46,786 bases of DNA from a virus. Made by a program: the position numbers and the translations under genes. Positions 3,364 through 44,695 of this stretch are shown here, in pieces. The notes below the pieces were generated by a model. It searched no databases. It worked only from the letters and a program-made list of their open reading frames with translations, and was not told the DNA's origin. Every line of letters begins with the position of its first letter. Position 1 is the first letter of the stretch. The stretch spans positions 1 through 46,786 of the IMG/VR virus record IMGVR_UViG_3300046714_000212. One strand, given 5' to 3'.

Positions 3364-3825
3364 TCACTCCTTCGCGATCTGGGCGCGGAGCCAGCGGAGG
3401 GCGTCCACCGTGGAGTTCTTGGGGTTGCCAGCCGGGGAGTCGTTCCTGTCGATGACGTCGGTGAGGTTGTCGTTCCCGAACGTCTTCTTCGCCAGGGTCT
3501 TCTGCACGTTGCCCTTGAACTGAATTCGCGGCGGATCTCCCCACGCACTCCTCTGCTGCACGAGCCGGTTGCCCGTCACCGCCGCGAGGCACCCGATCGC
3601 GCAGAACGAGGCGGACTCGAACACGCGGTTGTCGTTGTCGTCGTAGTCGAAGTCGATCTCGGCGTGGGTCGCCGGCCGCTTCTTCGCGAGCTTCAACGCC
3701 TCGTCGATCGCGCGGAGCTTCAGCTTCTTCGGCCACTTGCCCTTGATCTTCGAGTGGATGATCTTGACCCCGAGCTTCTTCAGCAGCCCGCCGAGCTCGA
3801 GGGACGACTTCTTGCCCTTGGTCAC
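3364..3825 (-). CDS. Hypothetical protein, possible DUF6197-like
   Basis: A 153-aa protein starting at GTG 3825, set by AGGAGA a few bases upstream. The N-terminus is lysine-rich and helical. The second half has the pattern SFCAIGCLAAVTGN, then FGNDNLTDVIDRNDSP, then STVDALRWLRAQIA, which recalls the DUF6197 layout (small Cys-Gly helix, N-D loop, closing helix). That match is from memory and is not certain. Function unknown. Confidence 0.65.
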   Translation of the reverse strand: MTKGKKSSLELGGLLKKLGVKIIHSKIKGKWPKKLKLRAIDEALKLAKKRPATHAEIDFDYDDNDNRVFESASFCAIGCLAAVTGNRLVQQRSAWGDPPRIQFKGNVQKTLAKKTFGNDNLTDVIDRNDSPAGNPKNSTVDALRWLRAQIAKE

Positions 3826-3851
3826 GTTCCGATCTCCTTTTTGGTTTCGAC

Positions 3852-4079
3852 TCAGGCGACGCGCCAGACCCGGTAGCCGCCCTTCTCCTTCTTGGTCGTG
3901 AACTTCCACCCGTGGTTCTTGGCCCAGGACCACGCGGCAGACCGAAGCGTGGCGGACCCGGACGGGGGGTAGTCCTTCTCCTTCAGGAAGAAGCTCTGCC
4001 CGACCTCCATCTTGGCCCACGGGTACTTCGTCCGTTCGCGGCCGGGCCTGGGAATCGGGATCTTGGATTCGAGTTTCAT
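3852..4079 (-). CDS. Small hypothetical protein, first gene of reverse cassette
   Basis: A 75-aa basic protein with the sequence type MEVGQSFFL, then SWAKNHGWKFTTKKEKGGYR and VWRVA at the end. This pattern is common in small phage proteins of unknown function. It opens the leftward cassette; its promoter should lie in the 4080-4220 stretch between it and the structured region, but no clear -35/-10 pair was found. Confidence 0.7.
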   Translation of the reverse strand: MKLESKIPIPRPGRERTKYPWAKMEVGQSFFLKEKDYPPSGSATLRSAAWSWAKNHGWKFTTKKEKGGYRVWRVA

Positions 4080-4223
4080 GGATCTCTCCGGGTTGAAGGG
4101 GGTGAACTGTAAGACCCGGTGGAGAGGAGGTCAAGAGGAATACGAACCCGGAAAGACGACCCGGTCCCTGCCCCTCCCTTTCCCTCCCGTAGATGACGAG
4201 GAGGGTGTCCCGCCGTAGTTCGG

Positions 4224-4480
4224 GCACTCGGTAAGGGGAGCCCCCCGGGCCGTCTCTAGCGCTGCCCGAGCCACGACTCCTAGCGCGATCCAGGGGTTCG
4301 CGGACTGCCCCGCCCCCTGTGGCGGCGTGTCTCGCTTGCATCGGCGCGAGGCCGGATCTTGAGCCGGCTGAGGGGAGTCTGGTAACTTGGGGACCAGACG
4401 CATCAGCACCGTCGAAGCTACCGCCCCTCCCGCGAGCCAGTCAAGCCGCGGTTCGAGGGGCGGTGGCCTTTTCGGGCCGC
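4224..4480 (+). ncRNA. Hairpin-rich non-coding region, candidate structured RNA
   Basis: This gap between divergent genes has no good ORF but holds a run of inverted repeats: CTCGG 4227-4231/CCGAG 4266-4270; CAGGGG 4291-4296/CCCCTG 4314-4319; GCCGG 4351-4355/CCGGC 4364-4368; GTCTGGT 4377-4383/ACCAGAC 4393-4399; a 10-bp stem 4420-4429/4455-4464 extended by CCGCG 4430-4434/CGCGG 4447-4451; and GGCC 4465-4468/4475-4478. The T's at 4469-4472 after the large hairpin could terminate a forward transcript. It may be a leader RNA of the 4516 operon, an attenuator, or a phage-specific RNA. Strand is inferred. Confidence 0.4.
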
Positions 4481-4515
4481 CTCGCTACCTTCCCGCGCAA
4501 CCACGGGAGCAGCAC

Positions 4516-4737
4516 ATGGCCTTCACCGCCCCGACCTACGCGATCGGCTACGACCAGACCGAGCAGAACGCGAACGCGGTCCTGATCGCTGCGGCCATCA
4601 ACAAGTGCGTCGCCGCGGCGCAGAAGAACCAGGAGGCGATCGCCGCCCTCCTGAACACGCACCAGAGCACGGACCTGTTCACGGCGGCCGCCCAGGCGGC
4701 GAACTCGGCGAAGGCGACCCGGGACCTCCTGCCGTGA
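4516..4737 (+). CDS. Small hypothetical protein
   Basis: A 73-aa alanine-rich helical protein (AVLIAAAINKCVAAAQKNQE, FTAAAQAANSAKATRDLLP). ATG 4516 follows GGGAGC a few bases upstream and sits just after the structured region. It opens the late forward operon. Its ending TGATGA overlaps the ATG of a 27-codon frame. No family is recognised. Confidence 0.65.
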   Translation: MAFTAPTYAIGYDQTEQNANAVLIAAAINKCVAAAQKNQEAIAALLNTHQSTDLFTAAAQAANSAKATRDLLP

Positions 4738-4820
4738 TGAATTCCAAGATCACGCGGCCCGACGCTCGCCGTCTGTTCCCGCATGGAAAGAACCCCAAGC
4801 CTTCAGCCGTGGGCGGGTGA
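4737..4820 (+). CDS. Possible 27-aa micropeptide
   Basis: ATG 4737 overlaps the TGA of the upstream gene and opens a 27-codon frame (MNSKITRPDARRLFPHGKNP and on) that ends 7 bases before the next likely start. The position fits a translational bridge between 4516-4737 and 4828-5121. The only support is the overlap; it may be non-coding. Confidence 0.35.
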   Translation: MNSKITRPDARRLFPHGKNPKPSAVGG

Positions 4821-4827
4821 CCCGGAG

Positions 4828-5121
4828 ATGGCCGACACGCCCGGGATCCGAGAGCGCCTCGCGGGGATCGAAGAGAAGCTGGGCGGCTTTCGCGTCGATT
4901 TCGCCGAGCACCGGCAAGAGGACCGGGACGGGTTCGACGCGATCACCAGCCGGCTCGAGCGGCTCCTCGACGGGGACGCCAGCAAACCGGGGCTGGTTAC
5001 GCGCGTCGATCGGCTGGAACAGACCGAGATGCGTAGGAACCGCACCTATTGGATCGCGGTGACCGCCGCGATCACCTCCGTCGTGGGCCTCCTAATGAAC
5101 ATCTTTCTCCACCGGCCATGA
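4828..5121 (+). CDS. Coiled-coil protein with C-terminal membrane anchor, holin-like
   Basis: A 97-aa protein: a charged coiled-coil first part (RERLAGIEEKLGGFRVDF, later LVTRVDRLEQTEMRRNR) and one hydrophobic C-terminal segment (TYWIAVTAAITSVVGLLMNI). This layout is seen in haemolysin/XhlA-type and holin-accessory phage proteins. ATG 4828 is preferred; ATG 4783 is an alternative. Its TGA overlaps the ATG of the terminase nuclease gene (ATGA, 5118-5121), so the two are likely translated together. A lysis role is inferred only from topology. Confidence 0.65.
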   Translation: MADTPGIRERLAGIEEKLGGFRVDFAEHRQEDRDGFDAITSRLERLLDGDASKPGLVTRVDRLEQTEMRRNRTYWIAVTAAITSVVGLLMNIFLHRP

Positions 5122-6035
5122 TCCAGGGCACCCACCGCGAGCTCTGCCCGCACCTCGAGCGCTGGGAGAACAAGAACGGCGCGACGGTGCTCCGCCTCCA
5201 CTGGAAGGCCGACCCCGACAAGACGGAAGCCTGGGCGGAGGACTTCGCCAAGACCTTCCCCGGGGGCCGTGAGGGGTGGCTCTGGCAGCGCGAGATGGAG
5301 ATTTCGTTCAAGGGCATCGGCGGGAAGCGCATCTTCCCCGAGTTCGCCCGCGGGACGCACGTGGTCAAGGCGTTCGACGTCCCCGAGGAATGGCCGAAGT
5401 GGCGGGTCATCGACCCGGGCGTCCAGCACGCCTTCGTCTGCCTGTGGTTCACGGTGGACGGCTTCGGGACCACGTACGTCTACAAGGAACACCACCAGAA
5501 GGGGTGGAACGACATCGGCCGCCATGTCGAAATGATCAAGGGCATGACCGGGCGGGACAAGATCGAGTTCACGCTGATCGACCCTTCGGCGTTCGCCATG
5601 ACGCTGGCGGCGCAGGGGCGTACGGTGGCGGAGCTCCTGTCCGAAAAGGATTTGCCGGTCGTGCCGGCGCACCGCGCGGGGAAGAAGAGGAACCAGTTCC
5701 CGGCGCTCGGCGACCTGCTGCGCCTTGGAAACCTGGGTGAACCGAGGTTCAAGGTCTTCGACACGTGCCCCAACACGATCGAGGAGTTCCTGACCTACCA
5801 CTGGAAGGAGGCCGCCGACCCGCAGTCCCCGGATCCCGAGGAGCCGTTCAAGAAGGACGACGACGCCGTGGACTGCTGCCTCTACTTCGCCGCCTGGGTG
5901 AATCCGGAGGCCGAGGCGTTTCAGGCGCGGAGGAAGGATCCGTACAGTAAGTGGTACGACGGCGACCGGGCGGACAAGATCCTCGCGGACGCGAACCGTC
6001 GCCACGCTCAGTACGTGGATTCGGAGGACGACTGA
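5118..6035 (+). CDS. Terminase large subunit, nuclease half (split gene)
   Basis: A 305-aa protein that matches the C-terminal half of a large terminase. Residues about 20-75 (GATVLRLHWKADP, then WLWQREMEISF) are the region that normally follows the ATPase coupling motif. The RNase H-like nuclease acids are visible: D99 in RVIDPG, D155 in TLIDPSA and the cluster KKDDDAVDC at 246-253. It cuts concatemeric DNA at the start and end of packaging. The ATPase half lies at 889-1617; the two add to 547 aa, a normal TerL length. ATG 5118 overlaps the preceding stop. Confidence 0.88.
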   Translation: MIQGTHRELCPHLERWENKNGATVLRLHWKADPDKTEAWAEDFAKTFPGGREGWLWQREMEISFKGIGGKRIFPEFARGTHVVKAFDVPEEWPKWRVIDPGVQHAFVCLWFTVDGFGTTYVYKEHHQKGWNDIGRHVEMIKGMTGRDKIEFTLIDPSAFAMTLAAQGRTVAELLSEKDLPVVPAHRAGKKRNQFPALGDLLRLGNLGEPRFKVFDTCPNTIEEFLTYHWKEAADPQSPDPEEPFKKDDDAVDCCLYFAAWVNPEAEAFQARRKDPYSKWYDGDRADKILADANRRHAQYVDSEDD

Positions 6036-6259
6036 TGTTCAAGGCGAAGGCGGCTCCGGAGGACGACTACCTGCTCAAGTACAAGGCGAAGCAGGAGAAG
6101 CTCCACGAGTTCATCGCCACCCTGACGGAGCGCGCCGCCAAGTGGCCGCTGGCTCCCCGGCCGTACAACATCGACGACCCGAACGGCCGCATCGGCGACG
6201 CGCTCAGGATGGAGCTCGAGGGGATCGTCGATCAACTGAAAGCCCTGGAGGCACCGTGA
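6035..6259 (+). CDS. Small hypothetical protein
   Basis: A 74-aa charged, mostly helical protein (DDYLLKYKAKQEKLHEFIAT, ALRMELEGIVDQLKALEAP). ATG 6035 overlaps the TGA of the nuclease gene (TGATG), and its own end overlaps the next GTG. It sits between terminase and portal genes, so a small packaging or head accessory role is possible, without direct evidence. Confidence 0.7.
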   Translation: MFKAKAAPEDDYLLKYKAKQEKLHEFIATLTERAAKWPLAPRPYNIDDPNGRIGDALRMELEGIVDQLKALEAP

Positions 6260-10052: not shown

Positions 10053-10493
10053 ATGGCACTTCAGGTTGCGAAGCGAAACTCTCCAGACGACGGCCCGGTC
10101 ATCATCGCCGGGAAGAAGCACGCCTGGGCGATCTTCTCGTGGGAGGCCGCGGACGCCTACGTCCCGACGACCCACTCGACCACGAAGCCGTTCAACAACG
10201 GCACGGCGGTCGGCGGTGAAACCAAGCCCCTCGCCGGCAAGAACCCCATCGACCTTTGGGGCATCCGGTACATCGACGAGATCCTCTGGGAAGGTGCCGG
10301 CGGCTCGGACGCCGACATCCCGACCGGATCGGTGAAGCCGGTCTGGGTCCGGAACGGCCAGTACATCAAGCTCATCCCGGTTGGCAACACGGGCACGGGC
10401 GGCACGCTCACCGCCGTCGCCGAGGTGGAGCTCACCGCCGTCGCCGGGAACCTCGAGTCCCTCGTTCTCTACGGCGAAATCATCGGAGACTGA
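10053..10493 (+). CDS. Probable head protein, about 146 aa
   Basis: A 146-aa protein, second of three similar-sized genes. It has repeated short strands with Gly/Thr turns (KPVWVRNGQYIKLIPVGNTG, TLTAVAEVELTAVAG) and an aromatic-rich centre (WGIRYIDEILWEG). ATG 10053 begins MALQVAKRNSP. Likely a virion surface or head accessory protein by place and composition. Confidence 0.65.
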   Translation: MALQVAKRNSPDDGPVIIAGKKHAWAIFSWEAADAYVPTTHSTTKPFNNGTAVGGETKPLAGKNPIDLWGIRYIDEILWEGAGGSDADIPTGSVKPVWVRNGQYIKLIPVGNTGTGGTLTAVAEVELTAVAGNLESLVLYGEIIGD

Positions 10494-38937: not shown

Positions 38938-39141
38938 CTACCGGCGCGGCCCGGTCTTATGCGAGGCGTGGTCGGATCGGGAGCCCCGAACCGCCACCGA
39001 CGCCCACGCGGCGCAAGTCGCCCACGAAGCAGTAGAAGTTGACGCCCCGTCCCGTTGGGCGGTGACGCGGGAAGGGGCCGACCAATTAATCTCACGGGCC
39101 GGAATGGCGACGCCCCACCCCGGCCATTCCCACGGCTTCAT
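38938..39141 (-). CDS. Small W/A/S-rich protein
   Basis: A 67-aa protein; ATG 39141 overlaps the TGA of the 19-codon frame before it. Sequence style: MKPWEWPGWGVAIPAREIN, then STASWATCAAWASVAVRGSR. The W-A-S runs resemble the 42.7-44.4 kb paralogue family. Function unknown. Confidence 0.5.
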   Translation of the reverse strand: MKPWEWPGWGVAIPAREINWSAPSRVTAQRDGASTSTASWATCAAWASVAVRGSRSDHASHKTGPRR

Positions 39142-39197
39142 CGACTCGCCCACGACGCCCCCGACGCCCGCGACCGTCCCGTTACTGCCGAGTTCAT
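39138..39197 (-). CDS. Possible 19-aa W-A-S micropeptide
   Basis: A 19-codon frame (MNSAVTGRSRASGASWASR) joined by ATGA overlaps to genes on both sides: its ATG overlaps the stop of 39194-39439 and its TGA overlaps the ATG of the 67-aa gene. The content RASGASWAS matches the nearby W-A-S family. It may be a truncated family member or serve translational coupling. Confidence 0.4.
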   Translation of the reverse strand: MNSAVTGRSRASGASWASR

Positions 39198-39439
39198 CGC
39201 CCGCGCCCCGACATTCGCCAATCGTCTGGCTGTTCGTCTTCCGGCCGCGCCTCGCGCGGGAGCTCGGCGAGCTCGAGCGGCGTTACCGCGATTCCGTTCG
39301 CCCCCGCCAGCTCGCCCACGTGCGCCGCGCACGCCAGCCATTGCACGGTGCCGCCTTTCAAGCGGGCGAGCCGACAGCCGCAGCGTAGCGAATACTGCGA
39401 GGCGTGCGGCGGGAGGTAGCAAATATGGAATAGGGACAT
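39194..39439 (-). CDS. Small hypothetical protein
   Basis: An 81-aa protein beginning MSLFHICYLPPHASQYSLRC and containing CGCRLARLKGGTVQWLACAA, then an acidic C-terminus. The His/Cys content may bind a metal. It differs from the W-A-S genes that flank it. ATG 39439 is 4 bases after the preceding stop. Confidence 0.6.
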   Translation of the reverse strand: MSLFHICYLPPHASQYSLRCGCRLARLKGGTVQWLACAAHVGELAGANGIAVTPLELAELPREARPEDEQPDDWRMSGRGR

Positions 39440-39443
39440 GGGG

Positions 39444-39662
39444 TTACGACCCAACGATCGACGCAATGCACCCGCACCGGTTGCCGGGGCGCGATACGTT
39501 GCTCGCGCATAGTGACGGTCGATGGTCCGCGGCGTTGTGCGGCTCCGGTTGGTTAGTCGGGGAATCCGACGCTGCCGCCGCCTCCCGATCATTGCACGCC
39601 ATGCTCCGGCGGAGAAAGCCGGTCCCGGCGCCGCGCGCGATCCATGCCGTAGCCGAGCTCAC
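39444..39662 (-). CDS. Small A/S-rich protein, possible W-A-S family member
   Basis: A 72-aa protein starting at GTG 39662 in a GTGA overlap, with AGGAGG 8 bases upstream. It begins MSSATAWIARGAGTGFLRRS and continues with Ala/Ser/Asp and several Cys. Length and N-terminal style recall the W-A-S paralogues, but the core W-A-S motif is weak. Confidence 0.5.
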   Translation of the reverse strand: MSSATAWIARGAGTGFLRRSMACNDREAAAASDSPTNQPEPHNAADHRPSLCASNVSRPGNRCGCIASIVGS

Positions 39663-39844
39663 GATGGCAACCTCCTTCCTAAGCCGCGCTCGACCGCTTG
39701 AGTGCGGCCGGTCGCCGATGACGCGGCGCACGCGCAGCGGTAGAGCGTGACACGCGAGGCGTGGACGGAAGCGCTCTCGCCCGAGGCGCGAACCGTCCCA
39801 CCCGACGCTACGTACCGCTCCGACTGCACGTGCGCCAGCGTCAT
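39659..39844 (-). CDS. Small A/S/R-rich protein, possible W-A-S family member
   Basis: A 61-aa protein from ATG 39844 (GTG 39853 adds three residues). It contains VRASGESASVHASRVTLYRC and ACAASSATGR, similar in composition to the paralogue array. Its stop overlaps the next GTG. Weak match to the core motif, so membership is tentative. Confidence 0.45.
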   Translation of the reverse strand: MTLAHVQSERYVASGGTVRASGESASVHASRVTLYRCACAASSATGRTQAVERGLGRRLPS

Positions 39845-39857
39845 CGGCGACACGGGA

Positions 39858-40187
39858 TCACGCCTCCTGGACCGCCTTCGCCTCGCCCCGCTTGGAGAGG
39901 GGCCGCGCGTCTCGGAGCATCGGCATCACCAGCGTCGGAAGGACGACCATTCCATCCGGCGCCGGCCACGTGGTCGTGGCGATATCCCGGAGTCCCTTCG
40001 CCGTCGTGGCAAAGCAGAGCTCCGTCATGGCGTGTTGCGCCGCACATCCTTCCAGGTACGTGCAGTCGTTCAGTACCAAGCGCTCGCCCAGGACTTGCAC
40101 GACGGTCCCGGCGAGCATCCAGCCGGGGACCACGTGGACAAGAACGTGCGTCCCGACCTTAACCGCGCTGCTCAAGTCATCGGCCAT
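39858..40187 (-). CDS. Hypothetical small beta-barrel-type protein
   Basis: A 109-aa protein: VGTHVLVHVVPGWMLAGTVV, then GERLVLNDCTYLEGC, AMTELCF and WPAPDGMVVLPTLVMPML. This strand order is like a phage family of about 100-130 aa with a G-V-V-x(5-7)-L-V-L core. ATG 40187 lies 11 bases inside the end of the VWA gene, so the pair is co-translated and perhaps co-functional. Function unknown. Confidence 0.6.
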   Translation of the reverse strand: MADDLSSAVKVGTHVLVHVVPGWMLAGTVVQVLGERLVLNDCTYLEGCAAQHAMTELCFATTAKGLRDIATTTWPAPDGMVVLPTLVMPMLRDARPLSKRGEAKAVQEA

Positions 40188-41358
40188 TGCTAACCCTCCT
40201 TGGATCGACCGTAACAACCTCCCAGCCTTCCGGCACCGGAGGAACGCCCCCCGAGCCGTGCGCTGGAATCAACGCCACGATGACGGGAACGGAAACCCGC
40301 TCCGGCCACGGCGTGAAACCGTCCGTAACGACTACCACGACGTCGGCGACGCGCTCGGCTTCCGCGATGGCGGGCCGCAAGTCCGTACCGCCCCCGCCCT
40401 TCCATTGCATCCGGCGCAAGTCCCCCCGCATCCGGTGCGCTTCGACGTCGCAGCTCCAAACGACGAGCTCTCCGAGCCGCCGCGCGGCGTCGGCGACGAC
40501 GCCCAGCGCTTCCGGGCCGATCGACGCCATCGACCCCGACGTATCGACCACGACCCCCACGCGCGGCCGGCGTTTCACCATGGCCGGGCGTAGCGCGGTG
40601 CATGGCCGCTGCCGGCGGTTCATGCGGGAGTAACTGAAATCCTCCCGCCCCGCCATGATCGCGCGCCCCTTCCGGGCGAGCGCGGCGGCGAGGCGTCTCG
40701 GCCACGGCACCCGTACCTTGGCCGCCGCCTCCTTCGCCCATACCAGCGCCCCCTTGGCCACGCTGCCGGGGTTTTTCTGCTCATGCGCCAGCGTGTCCTG
40801 GGCGGTCTGTTCCAGCGTGGCGCTCGCTGCACGCGGCGAGAGGCCGCCGCTCTCCGGCTCGCCCTCGAGGGGATTCCCCGCGCCCGAGCCGCCGCCGCAA
40901 TGGCCGGACTTGCAACATTCGTCCTTCATCACCAAAAGGTATTCCTCGGCGAGTAGGCCATCCGGCTGGCCAAGGTGGCGGGGGAGCGCGCCGCCGGGCG
41001 GCAAGTCGCCGGGGTCCAAGTCGTCATTGATTTCCATATCCCCGGCGACGTTCCACGCGATCGACGGGGGGAGCCCGCTGTCCTCCTGCCGCTTGCCGTG
41101 CTTCCGTAGCAAATGCTCGATTTCGTGCGCCGCAATCACCGCGGCCCGCACGCGCTCCGGCAGCGAACGGAGCCAGTCCAAGTCCATATAGATATGCCAG
41201 CGGTTCGACACGGCGACGGTGCCGAGCCCTTCCACGACGAGCGGCGTTAAGGCCGCGATGGCGCGCGCGTAGTACGGGCGGTAGAGCCGGGCGGCGAGCA
41301 GCGTGTCCGCGATGAAAGTGGACTCGGAAGGCGTGGGGGGGCGCGGCTTAATGGTCAT
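40177..41358 (-). CDS. VWA metallopeptidase-like protein (DUF2201 type)
   Basis: A 393-aa protein with an N-terminal metal-binding domain (AAHEIEHLLRKHG, HEIEH at residues 78-82, followed by AGDMEIND) and a C-terminal von Willebrand A-like domain with a MIDAS motif (VVDTSGSMAS, D272-S276; T325-D326 in GGGGTDLRP; VVVVTDGF with D346). A Gly/Cys/Glu linker (140-200) separates them. Such proteins pair with MoxR AAA+ ATPases, here 1.1 kb upstream with one small gene between. The pair is thought to act as a metal-dependent chaperone or protease; the target is unknown. Its ATG overlaps the preceding stop. Confidence 0.82.
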   Translation of the reverse strand: MTIKPRPPTPSESTFIADTLLAARLYRPYYARAIAALTPLVVEGLGTVAVSNRWHIYMDLDWLRSLPERVRAAVIAAHEIEHLLRKHGKRQEDSGLPPSIAWNVAGDMEINDDLDPGDLPPGGALPRHLGQPDGLLAEEYLLVMKDECCKSGHCGGGSGAGNPLEGEPESGGLSPRAASATLEQTAQDTLAHEQKNPGSVAKGALVWAKEAAAKVRVPWPRRLAAALARKGRAIMAGREDFSYSRMNRRQRPCTALRPAMVKRRPRVGVVVDTSGSMASIGPEALGVVADAARRLGELVVWSCDVEAHRMRGDLRRMQWKGGGGTDLRPAIAEAERVADVVVVVTDGFTPWPERVSVPVIVALIPAHGSGGVPPVPEGWEVVTVDPRRVSNGR

Positions 41359-41600
41359 CTCGGCCCCCTAACGTCGCTGGCCGCTCCGCTGCGCCGTACC
41401 GCGCTGGCCATCGTGGCGTCGCGCGCCATGCGGCCACCGCCGGCACGAGACGCCGCCGTTACGGTTTCTTCCGTCACCGCCGACGCAAAGAAGCGCGTAC
41501 TCTGTCCCGTCAAGGACGCCCATTGCGCGTGACGCTGCGCGCTCGCGCGTGACGCGCCGAGCTCGTCAAAGAGAATGCTGGCGAGCATGGCCGTCTTCAT
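41355..41600 (-). CDS. W-A-S family small protein between moxR and the VWA gene
   Basis: An 81-aa protein: MKTAMLASILFDELGASRAS, then QWASLTGQSTRFFASAVTEE and RDATMASAVRRSGAAS. It shares the short hydrophobic start and A/S/R-rich body of the 42.7-44.4 kb array. Both ends overlap neighbours by ATGA, so it is made in step with MoxR and the VWA protein and could be a substrate, adaptor or product of that pair. Confidence 0.65.
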   Translation of the reverse strand: MKTAMLASILFDELGASRASAQRHAQWASLTGQSTRFFASAVTEETVTAASRAGGGRMARDATMASAVRRSGAASDVRGPR

Positions 41601-42667
41601 TTCCGCAGCCTCTCACGTACCTCGAGAATCCGCCGCCCCAGCTCCTCGCATTCCTTCGGGACTTCCCCGCCCGTCGCAACCTGGAGCGCTTGCGCGGGCG
41701 TGATGGCCGCATCCACCCGAATGGCCGCGGTGAGCTTCCACGCGCGCGCGAGCCGCTGCGCCCGCTGGGGATGCTCCGACGCCGCAGCGCCAGCCACGCC
41801 CAGCATGGCGGCGAGCTGCTGGTCGGCACGGAGCCCAGCCAGCGCTTTCTTGGCGACGTCCAGGGGGTCCGAAAGAAGGAGCTCCGGGTCCGGGAGATCG
41901 CGCGCCTCCTCCCACGCCGCCCATTCCGCAGCGGCGGAAGGACCGACCACGCAACCGGCCACGGCGCACGCCGCGTCATCGGTGGAGCTCAAGGGAAGCG
42001 CCGCCAGCGCGTCGATGGCCATGCTCCACGTGCGCGGGCAAGGATGCGCCGCGGAGCTCTGCTCTGCCGTGGGGGTCGGCGCAAGGGCCGCCGTGTTGTG
42101 GAGCAAGTAGCCCGTGACGGAAGCCGCCGCCTTTGCCCGCGCCGCGGAACACTTCGCGCCCCACGCGGTGAGCTCTCCGGCCGCCCATTCCCGCGCGTCC
42201 ACCGTCCAGCTCACGTGCGCCATGCGGGAGGCGAGCGGCTGGGAAAGAATGCCGTTATCCGCCGCGCTCTCCGGCGGGTTGCCGGCCGCGACGACGACGA
42301 TTCCTGAGAGGTCGAGCCCGGCGACGAACGGCTTCCAGACGATGCCGAGCGCCGCCGCTTGGACCGAGGGCGGGGCGCACGTGATCTCATCCAGGAACAG
42401 CCATGCCGGCTTTCCCTGGTCGAGCGCTTGGCGCAACCGCCTCGCCCATGGGGGCGCGCTCTGCTGGACTTCGCCCCGCGCGTCCAGCGCCAGCCAGCCG
42501 CCGACGTCGGTAGGGTCCGACGTCGCCAGAATCACTACCTCGAGATGCGCGCCCGCCTCCTCGGCCAGCTTGCGAATCTGCGCCGTCTTTCCGGTGCCGG
42601 GAGCCCCGAGCAGCATCACGGGATGCTTTGCCAAGACGAACGTACGTACCAAGTCGATCGGCTTCAT
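41597..42667 (-). CDS. MoxR-like AAA+ ATPase
   Basis: A 356-aa protein with Walker A GAPGTGKT (residues 21-28), Walker B WLFLDEI (89-95), sensor 1 VVAAGNPPES (N130) and an arginine-finger-type LASRMAHVSW (R148). The C-terminal 200 residues are Ala-rich helices. MoxR ATPases remodel proteins or help metal insertion with VWA partners. ATG 42667 follows GGGAGG and two GTTAG motifs, and a well-placed promoter with a palindrome lies just upstream. Confidence 0.85.
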   Translation of the reverse strand: MKPIDLVRTFVLAKHPVMLLGAPGTGKTAQIRKLAEEAGAHLEVVILATSDPTDVGGWLALDARGEVQQSAPPWARRLRQALDQGKPAWLFLDEITCAPPSVQAAALGIVWKPFVAGLDLSGIVVVAAGNPPESAADNGILSQPLASRMAHVSWTVDAREWAAGELTAWGAKCSAARAKAAASVTGYLLHNTAALAPTPTAEQSSAAHPCPRTWSMAIDALAALPLSSTDDAACAVAGCVVGPSAAAEWAAWEEARDLPDPELLLSDPLDVAKKALAGLRADQQLAAMLGVAGAAASEHPQRAQRLARAWKLTAAIRVDAAITPAQALQVATGGEVPKECEELGRRILEVRERLRK

Positions 42668-42702: not shown

Positions 42703-42734
42703 GGAACCGTAGCGGTTCCGTAGAACGCTGTCAA
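42703..42734 (-). promoter_or_regulatory. Sigma70-like promoter with operator palindrome for moxR
   Basis: Reverse strand: TTGACA (42729-42734), 17-base spacer, TACGGT (42706-42711). A perfect palindrome GGAACCG-TAG-CGGTTCC (42703-42719) covers the -10 box, a typical repressor site. The -35 overlaps the stop codon of the preceding gene. Expected leader about 30 bases with GTTAG motifs at 42689-42693 and 42671-42675 (complement). Confidence 0.65.
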
Positions 42735-42982
42735 CGGTGCGTCTGGCTGGCCGCGCAGCTCTCGCGGTTCTCGGTGACGCGCGAGGCGATTCCGGACCAG
42801 CAGATAGGCGAGGCTTTCGACGCCCACCAAAAGAAGCCGGCGCCGGCCACGCTTGCGCACGTAGCCCGGCGGCTCCTTCCCGCCATGCTGGCGTCGATTG
42901 CCGCGCCGTTCCATGTCGCGGCCGAGGGATATCCGTAGCCGGCGCCGGCATTGGAGCTGCCGAGCATGATCGCGGTATTCAT
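42731..42982 (-). CDS. W-A-S family small protein, array member 5
   Basis: An 83-aa protein: MNTAIMLGSSNAGAGYGYPS, then AIDASMAGRSRRATCASVAG and FFWWASKASPICWSGIASRV. It carries the two-part core W-A-S ... W-S-G-x-A-S seen in the neighbour at 42979. ATG 42982 overlaps the upstream TGA. Last of five genes in a row; the moxR promoter starts at its stop codon. Function unknown. Confidence 0.7.
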   Translation of the reverse strand: MNTAIMLGSSNAGAGYGYPSAATWNGAAIDASMAGRSRRATCASVAGAGFFWWASKASPICWSGIASRVTENRESCAASQTHR

Positions 42983-43224
42983 CCGACTTCCCCCGACGCC
43001 CCCGCTGCGCGTGTGCCGTAGGTCGCGTCGCTCGCCGAACCGCTCCAGACGTAGCCGCGATGCAGCGCCGCCATGCTCGCCCAGGAATCCCACACCGCGC
43101 GCCCGGCCACGCTCGCGCGCGCCGCCTCGAGTTGTCCCGCCATGCTTTGCCCGGCGCCGTGGCCCATCGACCCGGCTCGGCTCGGCGCCGGCCACGCGCG
43201 CCCGCCCAATACGGTTAGGTGCAT
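42979..43224 (-). CDS. W-A-S family small protein, array member 4
   Basis: An 81-aa protein: MHLTVLGGRAWPAPSRAGS, then QLEAARASVAGRAVWDSWAS and GYVWSGSASDATYGTRAAG. Core: R-A-S-V-A, then W-A-S-M, then W-S-G-x-A-S-D-A, closely matching array member 3 (W-A-S-Y ... W-A-G-x-A-S-D-A). ATG 43224 overlaps the upstream stop by 10 bases. Function unknown. Confidence 0.7.
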   Translation of the reverse strand: MHLTVLGGRAWPAPSRAGSMGHGAGQSMAGQLEAARASVAGRAVWDSWASMAALHRGYVWSGSASDATYGTRAAGASGEVG

Positions 43225-43466
43225 TTGGATGCGGCCCTTGCCATGGATTGCCCGGAGGCGTCCGACGCGGTCCCCGCCCATTCCGTCGCGTAGCGGTTTC
43301 CTCCGACCGAGTAAGACGCCCAGATTCCGTAGCTGCCCCGTCCCGCACTGCTCGCGGTATCGGCGGTAAGGAGCGGCGTCGCCCAGCTCGCCCGGTGGGG
43401 GTCTACGCCATCATTGAACAGGCGCCGCGTCTGAAAGCCGGTCGCGCCGAGGAGTGTTAATACCAT
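43215..43466 (-). CDS. W-A-S family small protein, array member 3
   Basis: An 83-aa protein: MVLTLLGATGFQTRRLFND, then HRASWATPLLTADTASSAGR, GSYGIWASYSVGGNRY and WAGTASDASGQSMARAAS. It is the clearest member for the consensus R-A-S-W-A-x5-A-D-x-A-S, W-A-S, W-x-G-x-A-S-D-A. ATG 43466 overlaps the previous stop by 10 bases. Function unknown. Confidence 0.72.
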   Translation of the reverse strand: MVLTLLGATGFQTRRLFNDGVDPHRASWATPLLTADTASSAGRGSYGIWASYSVGGNRYATEWAGTASDASGQSMARAASKCT

Positions 43467-43696
43467 GATGCTTCCGCCGCGGAATGTCGCGAAAGGACGT
43501 CGCTTGAATTGACGGTATGCCGGTCGTCCCCGGCGCACGATGCGGAGAGATTGCTCGCCGTGCGCGGCGTTGGCGTACTCGAGGAATCGGCGACGGCGTT
43601 TCGAGCCGCCCAGCTCGCACGATCGGCTCGCATTTCCCCGGACACCCGGCACCGGGAGATTGTGTATCCAAACGTGCCGAGCAGATAGAGATTCAT
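43457..43696 (-). CDS. W-A-S family small protein, array member 2
   Basis: A 79-aa protein: MNLYLLGTFGYTISRCRVSG, then ADRASWAARNAVADSSSTP and SNLSASCAGDDRH, ending RHSAAEASWY. It aligns with members 1 and 3 from R-A-S-W-A through A-D-x-x-S to S-A-S. ATG 43696 overlaps the upstream TGA. Function unknown. Confidence 0.7.
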   Translation of the reverse strand: MNLYLLGTFGYTISRCRVSGEMRADRASWAARNAVADSSSTPTPRTASNLSASCAGDDRHTVNSSDVLSRHSAAEASWY

Positions 43697-43947
43697 CGGT
43701 CCCGCCGGATCGAAGCATCCGCCGCGGAGCGGTCAAATACCAGGAGGCTTGCCAGCCACGCCAGCCGGCCGCTTCCGGAAACCCTAGAGGCGGAGAGCGT
43801 GGTTAGTGACTTCTCCCCGACGATGGCGCTCGCTTGGTCCGCTTCTTCGAGATCGGCGGCATAGCTCGCTCGCTGCGCGCGCCGAAACTCGCGCACGCAC
43901 GACCATGCCGTCCAATCGCCCGCCCCCGCCATGATGGCCAGCATCAT
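43693..43947 (-). CDS. W-A-S family small protein, array member 1
   Basis: An 84-aa protein: MMLAIMAGAGDWTAWSCVRE, then AQRASYAADLEEADQASAIV and TTLSASRVSGSGRLAWLASL. R-A-S-Y-A-x5-A-D-x-A-S lines up exactly with members 2 and 3. The first 10 residues are hydrophobic but too short for a signal peptide. ATG overlaps the stop of the upstream gene. Function unknown. Confidence 0.7.
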   Translation of the reverse strand: MMLAIMAGAGDWTAWSCVREFRRAQRASYAADLEEADQASAIVGEKSLTTLSASRVSGSGRLAWLASLLVFDRSAADASIRRDR

Positions 43948-44144
43948 TCCAGCCAGCTCCCGCCGCCGAATCCCAGCATCCTGGCCACGGTCGGCAGCAG
44001 CTCGCGCACGACGATTTCCGGGCGCAGCTCGAGCTCGACCCCTGGAACGGGCGGGCGCAGAATCTCCGCGGCTTCCTCGGCGCCGAGCTGGCGCCGCTCC
44101 GGAGCTTCCTGGACCGATAGGTTCCTAACGCAACGGTCGCACAT
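43944..44144 (-). CDS. Small hypothetical protein at the head of the array
   Basis: A 66-aa protein (MCDRCVRNLSVQEAPERRQL; later PGVELELRPEIVVRELLPT) with one CxxC at the N-terminus. It is not W-A-S-like. ATG 44144 has GGAGTGTTAGCA upstream, and it follows a hairpin terminator, so it may start a new transcription unit. Its end overlaps array member 1. Confidence 0.6.
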   Translation of the reverse strand: MCDRCVRNLSVQEAPERRQLGAEEAAEILRPPVPGVELELRPEIVVRELLPTVARMLGFGGGSWLE

Positions 44145-44160
44145 TGCTAACACTCCAAAG

Positions 44161-44178
44161 CCCCGCATCGTCGCGGGG
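44161..44178 (-). terminator. Hairpin terminator on the early strand
   Basis: Inverted repeat CCCCGC (44161-44166) and GCGGGG (44173-44178) with a 6-base loop, just after the TAA at 44180. Read leftwards it is followed by CTTTGG, a short T run. It likely ends or weakens the transcript of 44631-44180 before the paralogue array. Confidence 0.5.
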
Positions 44179-44179
44179 T

Positions 44180-44422
44180 TTAACTGGACGCCCCGGCCGC
44201 TCCGTTCGTTTCCGTGGCAGCGCTGGCGATCCACGCGTGGCGGCCGTGCGCGGACGAAGACGACCAAAACCCGCAAAAGCTCCCGCCTCGATCCGCGCTC
44301 GCCCATGCGGCGTAAGGGCTCGGTGCCCAGCCGACCTTGGAACTGTGCGCGAGCTTCCATCCACGTGCGTGTCGCGCCGGCCCGGAGTTGAGCGCCGGAG
44401 AGGAATAAAAAGCCAGATTCAC
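44180..44422 (-). CDS. W-A-S family small protein, outlying member
   Basis: An 80-aa protein (GTG 44422 in a GTGA overlap): MNLAFYSSPALNSGPARHAR, then GWAPSPYAAWASADRGGSF, FWSSSSAHGRHAWIASAAT and a G-A-A-G-A-S-S end. It shares the W-A-S and G-S-F/Y-x-x-W-x-S core and the short hydrophobic start with the array. Separated from the array by a terminator and one other gene. Confidence 0.65.
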   Translation of the reverse strand: MNLAFYSSPALNSGPARHARGWKLAHSSKVGWAPSPYAAWASADRGGSFCGFWSSSSAHGRHAWIASAATETNGAAGASS

Positions 44423-44631
44423 GACGAATACTCTTTCGCGCACTCTTCGGCGCAGAATCGCTGCCAGCGCTCGTCGGGTTTGAAATCGAATCCGCAGGAG
44501 ACGCACTCCCGCACGGAGTCGCGCCACGCCTCCGGGCATCCGGTTTCATGGCAGAGCGTGCCGTTGATTCGAAGGAGCTCGCATCCGGTGCAAGCGCCCG
44601 AGTGGAAACGCCCTTCCTTTGCTTCGGCCAT
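44419..44631 (-). CDS. Zinc-binding small phage protein
   Basis: A 70-aa protein with CTGCELLRINGTLCHETGCP and then ECVSCGFDFKPDERWQRFC, a two-knuckle Cys/His set of a type common in phages (CHETGCP plus C-x2-CG-x2-F---QRFC--EC). Probably a structural zinc fold. ATG 44631 follows AGGAGC, and a good promoter lies just upstream. Confidence 0.75.
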   Translation of the reverse strand: MAEAKEGRFHSGACTGCELLRINGTLCHETGCPEAWRDSVRECVSCGFDFKPDERWQRFCAEECAKEYSS

Positions 44632-44665
44632 AACGTGAGCTCCTTTCCTAACGGGACGGGCGCCC

Positions 44666-44695
44666 ACGCTAGCGCGCCCGGTCCCATGCTGTCAA
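44666..44695 (-). promoter_or_regulatory. Sigma70-like early promoter
   Basis: Reverse strand TTGACA (44690-44695), 18-base spacer, TAGCGT (44666-44671). It lies between the stop at 44698 and the start at 44631, with a leader of about 28 bases that holds GTTAG (complement of 44648-44652) and AGGAGC. The -35 matches consensus fully. Confidence 0.6.

Follow-up and report, generated by a model that had tools for sequence, protein, structure and literature searches.

The DNA analysed here, hereafter the window, is the whole of the IMG/VR virus record IMGVR_UViG_3300046714_000212 (46,786 bases). Its plus strand carries structural genes (portal, major head protein and internal virion protein), and its minus strand carries an operon encoding RecT, a RecE-type nuclease, a MoxR ATPase and a VWA protein with a metallopeptidase domain. 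The portal is distant kin (20-24%) of that of Arthrobacter phage Jasmine and similar phages of ~45 kb; a DNA search of 50,697 phage records returned no near relative of the window phage, and scans that used the exonuclease, the major head protein, the terminase or RecT as single-protein queries likewise yielded none. For the large terminase, the C-terminal (nuclease) part alone was recognised, in one ORF at 5049-6035, and the ATPase part was not identified in the window.

Interspersed among the minus-strand genes are ten small genes of 61-84 codons and one mini-gene of 19 codons, all within 5.5 kb, which are listed with their neighbours in Table 1. The RecE-type nuclease gene follows the last of them. 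Five of the ten form the head-to-tail tandem that a first-pass annotation of this DNA had described at 43947 to 42731, with coordinates and lengths (79-84 codons) that prove correct and with stop/start overlaps of 4 nt (ATGA) or 10 nt. Genes at junctions throughout the family mostly overlap by 4 or 10 nt or lie no more than 13 nt apart, frequently with ATGA or GTGA at the junction, the exceptions being wider gaps of 35 nt after o6, 63 nt before the MoxR gene and 58 nt before the nuclease gene. Ribosome-binding sites lie inside the 3' ends of the preceding genes, and the overlaps from gene to gene imply translational coupling.

Table 1. Small repeat genes of the window and the genes around them, in minus-strand order (positions are those of the window)
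Feature	Position	Strand	Description
Cys-rich gene	44419-44667	-	upstream of o6
o6	44180-44422	-	80 aa; GTG start; 4-nt overlap with stop of upstream Cys-rich gene
CxxC gene	43944-44144	-	between o6 and o1
o1	43693-43947	-	84 aa; MMLAIMAG...; A-S at 27, 39, 53, 66, 78
o2	43457-43696	-	79 aa; RASWAARNAVADSSS
o3	43215-43466	-	83 aa from ATG; RASWATPLLTADTAS...WAS
o4	42979-43224	-	81 aa
o5	42731-42982	-	83 aa; last of the five-gene tandem
MoxR-like AAA ATPase	41597-42667	-	phrog_1297; context gene; 43% identical in G006
o7	41355-41600	-	81 aa; MKTAMLAS...AASDVRGPR; between MoxR and VWA genes, 4-nt overlap with each
VWA protein, N-terminal metallopeptidase domain	40177-41358	-	PF13203/PF09967; HEIEHLLRKH zinc motif; context gene
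109-aa conserved gene	39858-40187	-	neighbour of MoxR-VWA pair; similar genes in L137 and L138; context gene
o9	39659-39844	-	61 aa
o11	39444-39662	-	72 aa; GTG start; 4-nt overlap with o9 stop; preceded by AGGAAGGAGG
Second Cys-containing gene	39194-39439	-	between o11 and 19-codon copy
19-codon copy (mini-gene)	39138-39197	-	MNSAVTGRSRASGASWASR; ATGA overlaps on both sides
o8	38938-39141	-	67 aa; MKPWEW...TASWATCAAWAS

The small genes constitute one paralogue family whose similarity extends beyond composition. Composition alone could mislead, because the small proteins are richer than the large phage genes in Ala (20% vs 11%), Ser (14% vs 6%) and Trp (4.4% vs 2%). Seven of the proteins nevertheless contain 17 (A/S)-S pairs at a distance of 12 residues where 4.16 +/- 1.93 are expected from 2000 shuffles that keep the (A/S)-S dipeptides intact (maximum 11), and twelve large phage genes contain none. 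A control that splits the dipeptides expects 1.0 pair and is too lenient because shuffling breaks them, as against 4.2 for the dipeptide-keeping control. In a leave-one-out HMM analysis, o1-o5 and o7 each scored above all 1000 of their own shuffles (p=0.001), o9 (p=0.001) and o8 (p=0.002) were significant as well, and three unrelated neighbour genes were negative. The weakest of the main set was o6, a sixth gene that the first-pass annotation had already named and that is confirmed here, with a marginal score (p=0.045). Pairwise, o4 compares with o3 at z=6.1 and with o5 at z=4.9; a line-up of A-S positions between paralogues, counted from the protein ends, was marginal only (p 0.04-0.10). The earlier suggestion of related genes at 41355 and at 38938-39844 is likewise borne out, by the HMM scores for o7, o8 and o9 and by pattern and context for o11; with these members and the mini-gene, the family is therefore larger than first listed. 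An explanation of the resemblance by composition only, which the earlier annotation had itself allowed for, is at odds with spacing and HMM scores that both exceed those of shuffles.

What the members share is best rendered as a repeat of 12 residues, x-A-S-x-A-[TGS]-x4-A-x. The W-A-S-rich motif of the first-pass annotation captured a residue order that is indeed common to the proteins, but not as one linear motif. Ala recurs at a distance of 3 residues (autocorrelation z=5.8) and also at 6, 9 and 12, with depletion at 4, whereas Ser recurs at 12 only (z=5.7); Ala occupies three of the four repeat positions spaced by 3, and at repeat indices 3 and 9 it is found in 13/20 cases each (p=8e-7, computed over related copies that are not independent). 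At the DNA level, 14 different hexamers encode the 36 A-S dipeptides, their Ser being AGC 19 times and TCN 17 times. A search of the region for iterons or direct repeats found none large enough to account for the pattern, and 9-bp arrays are absent from the window save for 3 units in the 19-codon copy. The 14 hexamers, the use of both serine codon boxes and the lack of a DNA repeat family together place the constraint on the protein and not on the DNA; the A-S pattern is maintained at the protein level.

These observations bear on the suspicion that the frames are not genes at all and represent low-complexity, GC-rich sequence that happens to stay open. Ala/Ser-rich frames are common antisense to GC-rich genes, and synonymous codon bias, which alone does not prove coding, is weak here and does not separate the family frames from one antisense frame. 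The spacing signal, the leave-one-out test, the gene overlaps, third-position GC and a family in the same slot of another phage (see below) all contradict such an artefact, which we regard as scarcely credible.

Searches by sequence with the window proteins in Pfam, PHROGs, PADLOC and PDB found no family that covers them, the best PDB match having E>=0.32; four members tested against NCBIfam gave no match, and tblastn searches of phages with the small proteins as queries gave nothing useful. As far as these searches reach, the window family is undescribed in the libraries tested, which agrees with its earlier designation as an undescribed paralogue family. A match of o9 to PHROG 1081/28646 was weak (E=0.02) and not reproduced in a genome search, and a degenerate DNA pattern (ASWA..AS..AS) run over IMG/VR matched mostly antisense frames of Ala/Ser-rich genes; both leads were set aside.

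A related set of genes was reached through the neighbouring VWA protein, whose profile led to 80 IMG/VR phage loci that were kept. When a profile of the window family was run over these loci, the top matches, at modest E-values of 0.007-0.05, were ORFs of locus L137, which with L337 and L339 belongs to the 55,316-base phage contig IMGVR_UViG_3300046788_000307 (hereafter G006); such small ORFs occur in 1/80 of the loci with a related VWA gene and are absent from the other 79. G006 is a different phage overall, with no portal match to the window phage, and its MoxR and VWA proteins are each 43% identical to those of the window. Between its MoxR (3818-4834) and VWA (4995-6104) genes in L137 lies a 55-aa ORF at 4831-4998, MMVATLASCASYASCASYASYASDASDASYANYASHASLASHASLASHASRLRSK, which overlaps each of them by 4 nt, just as o7 does. 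In all, G006 contains at least 14 small (x-A-S)n ORFs, including a run of five in succession. Almost every one starts with MMVA[TI]LA and most end in SRLRGG or similar, with the last codons containing the ribosome-binding site for the gene that follows.

Like the window genes, these ORFs are small, present in many copies, built of A-S repeats, begin M-x-[VLT]-A-x-[LM]-A and are arranged head to tail with ATGA overlaps. The N-termini are alike (MMVATLAS and MMVAILAS in G006 vs MKTAMLAS and MMLAIMAG in the window; M-x-x-A-x-[LM]-A), as are the C-termini (ASRLRSK vs ASDVRGPR; A-S-x-[LV]-R). The families match by profile in both directions and share the MoxR/VWA slot. In the reverse comparison, a profile built from 13 G006 proteins alone was scored against the 285 window ORFs of 50-300 aa: o7 ranked 1/285 (21.5 bits, shuffle p=0.002), and o5, o3, o1, o8 and o4 (each p=0.002) and o9 (p=0.005) were also significant by shuffling; o6 was weak (p=0.037) and o2 not significant (p=0.11), and plus-strand ORFs that scored highly through composition failed the shuffle test (e.g. 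p=0.63). The two sets differ in that the G006 proteins are almost perfect 3-residue repeats encoded by 9-bp tandem repeats (as detected by TRF) and have no 12-residue super-period, whereas the window members, with Ala at period 3 and Ser at period 12, do not form a perfect 3-residue repeat on 9-bp DNA units. Judged by profile and position, G006 carries the same gene type in purer repeat form at the shared MoxR/VWA slot. Frames of this type are thus conserved outside the window phage, and the earlier proviso that they might not be conserved in related phages therefore fails.

The comparison between phages draws mostly on G006, a second candidate, G007, being uncertain. In IMG/VR, a general DNA pattern for (x-A-S)5 matched mostly other repeats, with similar arrays in G007 (L219), and an exact, strict pattern that combined the G006-type start with the repeat had no match in genome contigs. 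In G007, two 9-bp arrays (L341:5064-5246 and 10088-10348), MICILYRGSWAS(RAS/WAS/GAS)n, lie between genes and share a border; their coding frame is uncertain. Within G006 itself, the copies at L339:2873-3124, L337:16737-16922 and L339:7580-7768 have diverged or do not end in the usual C-terminus and resemble intermediates towards the window form. Weak Pfam matches between G006 proteins and Plasmodium HRP fell below cut-off and were dismissed as repeats of similar composition.

The pure arrays of G006 invite the main rival explanation, namely that these are near-neutral or selfish spacer genes in which an in-frame 9-bp repeat expands by slippage and the unit, with its start codon, its repeat and a ribosome-binding site for the gene that follows, copies itself between genes, and whose protein does little beyond keeping ribosomes moving down the operon. 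In favour of this view, the G006 arrays are 9-bp tandem repeats, most of the 14 copies have nearly identical borders that end in the ribosome-binding site of the following gene and ATGA, the repeat number varies freely (55-120 aa), and the arrays are open in all three frames. In the window, however, the DNA repeats are gone and the protein pattern has been kept through synonymous substitutions, with serine codons drawn from both boxes. Neutral decay would lose Ser evenly and would not keep it at 12 while losing it at 3, 6 and 9, so that the retention of Ser at every fourth triplet, with Ala at three of four, is not what such decay would leave, and we consider the spacer explanation somewhat unlikely. 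The contrast between the two phages also qualifies the earlier description of the genes as fast-diverging, which is fair for the window copies; G006 displays a different route to diversity, through expansion of 9-bp (x-A-S) triplet repeats.

The shared slot makes a link to the MoxR-VWA pair possible. MoxR-vWA pairs with an N-terminal metallopeptidase occur in jumbo phages, where they have been proposed to aid virion assembly and processing (PMC7824862), and the two genes of the window, which together span 40177-42667, are of the same kind, the VWA protein retaining its HExxH motif. The small proteins might accordingly be clients, adaptors or substrates of this machinery that are, for example, loaded, remodelled or cleaved at A-S sites, as would suit the member that, in each of the two phages, separates the MoxR gene from the VWA gene, and the five members directly upstream of MoxR in the window. 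That idea sits poorly with the occurrence of small ORFs in a single one of the 80 VWA loci and with the position of most G006 copies and several window copies away from the pair, and appears decidedly unlikely to us. The pair occurs mostly without small repeat genes and is context here, not the finding; MoxR relatives were seen in 248 phage records.

With regard to structure, AlphaFold predictions for eight paralogues and for one protein were too poor to use (pLDDT 39.6 and 46.4) and lend no support to any fold. A compact repeat fold is proposed by analogy: a tight coil with four sides would require just such a period of 12 residues, with one residue in three small. In the beetle antifreeze protein TmAFP, a solved structure, each 12-residue coil has the sequence TCTxSxNCxxAx, with residues 2, 5, 8 and 11 pointing inward (PMC8038014). 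The window proteins resemble it in their 12-residue repeat, their size of ~80 aa and the small residue (Ala) at three of these coil positions, 2, 5 and 11. Against a perfect small-coil solenoid, their position 8 is variable and not small, and the G006 proteins show no 12-residue super-period; the window proteins also have neither the conserved Cys nor TCT, and there is no sequence homology, so that the analogy is one of pattern only. A membrane protein was rejected for want of any strongly hydrophobic 19-residue stretch; the short hydrophobic start noted in the first-pass annotation is present and is too short for a membrane helix.

The other system considered was HxsA (His-Xaa-Ser repeat, NCBIfam NF038313), which, like the G006 proteins, has a three-residue repeat with Ser third. 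Its model reached E=1e-5 and 26.3 bits at best with G006 proteins, against a cut-off of 55, and the small phage proteins lack the His periodicity. No radical-SAM partners HxsB/HxsC (PF04055, TIGR03977) were found in either phage record, although the records may be fragments and the partners could be host-encoded. With scores below cut-off, no such partner found and four tested window members that do not match, an HxsA-type identity was rejected.

The reading we favour, and to which we assign a little under two chances in five, is that the genes encode a real, translated family of small repeat proteins that has spread through the recombination-gene operon and diverged on a fixed frame, with a role early in infection in host takeover or counter-defence. 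The family would have originated when a 9-bp (x-A-S) unit expanded, and head-to-tail and dispersed copying would have multiplied its members. Change would have run from the pure repeat to the diverged copy, the window copies diverging but retaining, in every 12 residues, one Ser and three Ala, as would suit a compact, solenoid-like fold with Ala inward and the variable residues outward. Least supported are the steps by which the proteins would be made early, which gene order alone suggests, a promoter scan having found nothing, and would act outside the virion on host targets. Such a role would explain the many diverged copies, as variable surfaces on a fixed frame, and takeover or counter-defence is the use that we judge likeliest for these accessory proteins, for which the searches found no homologue of known function.

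An anti-defence or exclusion function had already been suggested in the first-pass annotation, for which the present searches provide no backing: PADLOC models, which describe defence and not counter-defence proteins, matched none of the small proteins, and these are unlike acidic DNA mimics because they are neutral to basic (pI 7.8-11.6), so that the mimic idea was dropped. An arms-race function is possible. A further proposal, which we hold to be unlikely, is that a self-copying module, in which an A-S repeat stands between a start codon and a ribosome-binding site for the following gene, spreads between the genes of phage operons, first as pure triplets and then as some ten diversified repeat-fold proteins on one frame; if so, the phage would gain a varied set of surfaces for binding to the host.

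No part of phage genomes is less well understood than arrays of small orphan genes, and the present case offers a simple in-frame repeat in two states at one slot, as raw 9-bp triplets in G006 and as diverged, protein-constrained copies in the window. With the two states in view, the origin of new small phage proteins becomes directly testable, as does the question of whether a repeat that expands and then diverges can build proteins that interact with the host.

Repeat stretches were also seen in longer proteins. At L138:1003-1653, in a relative of the MoxR-VWA locus, a 216-aa protein without a family match carries a different Ala-rich repeat, SAARAAAYAAYSAA. In L275, L311 and L333, longer phage proteins contain (x-A-S)n stretches immediately in front of a sequence common to them, of the type AITKPEGLxYPPVFRKNxFALAGxWKI, and the A-S repeat may serve more generally in phages as a linker or domain.
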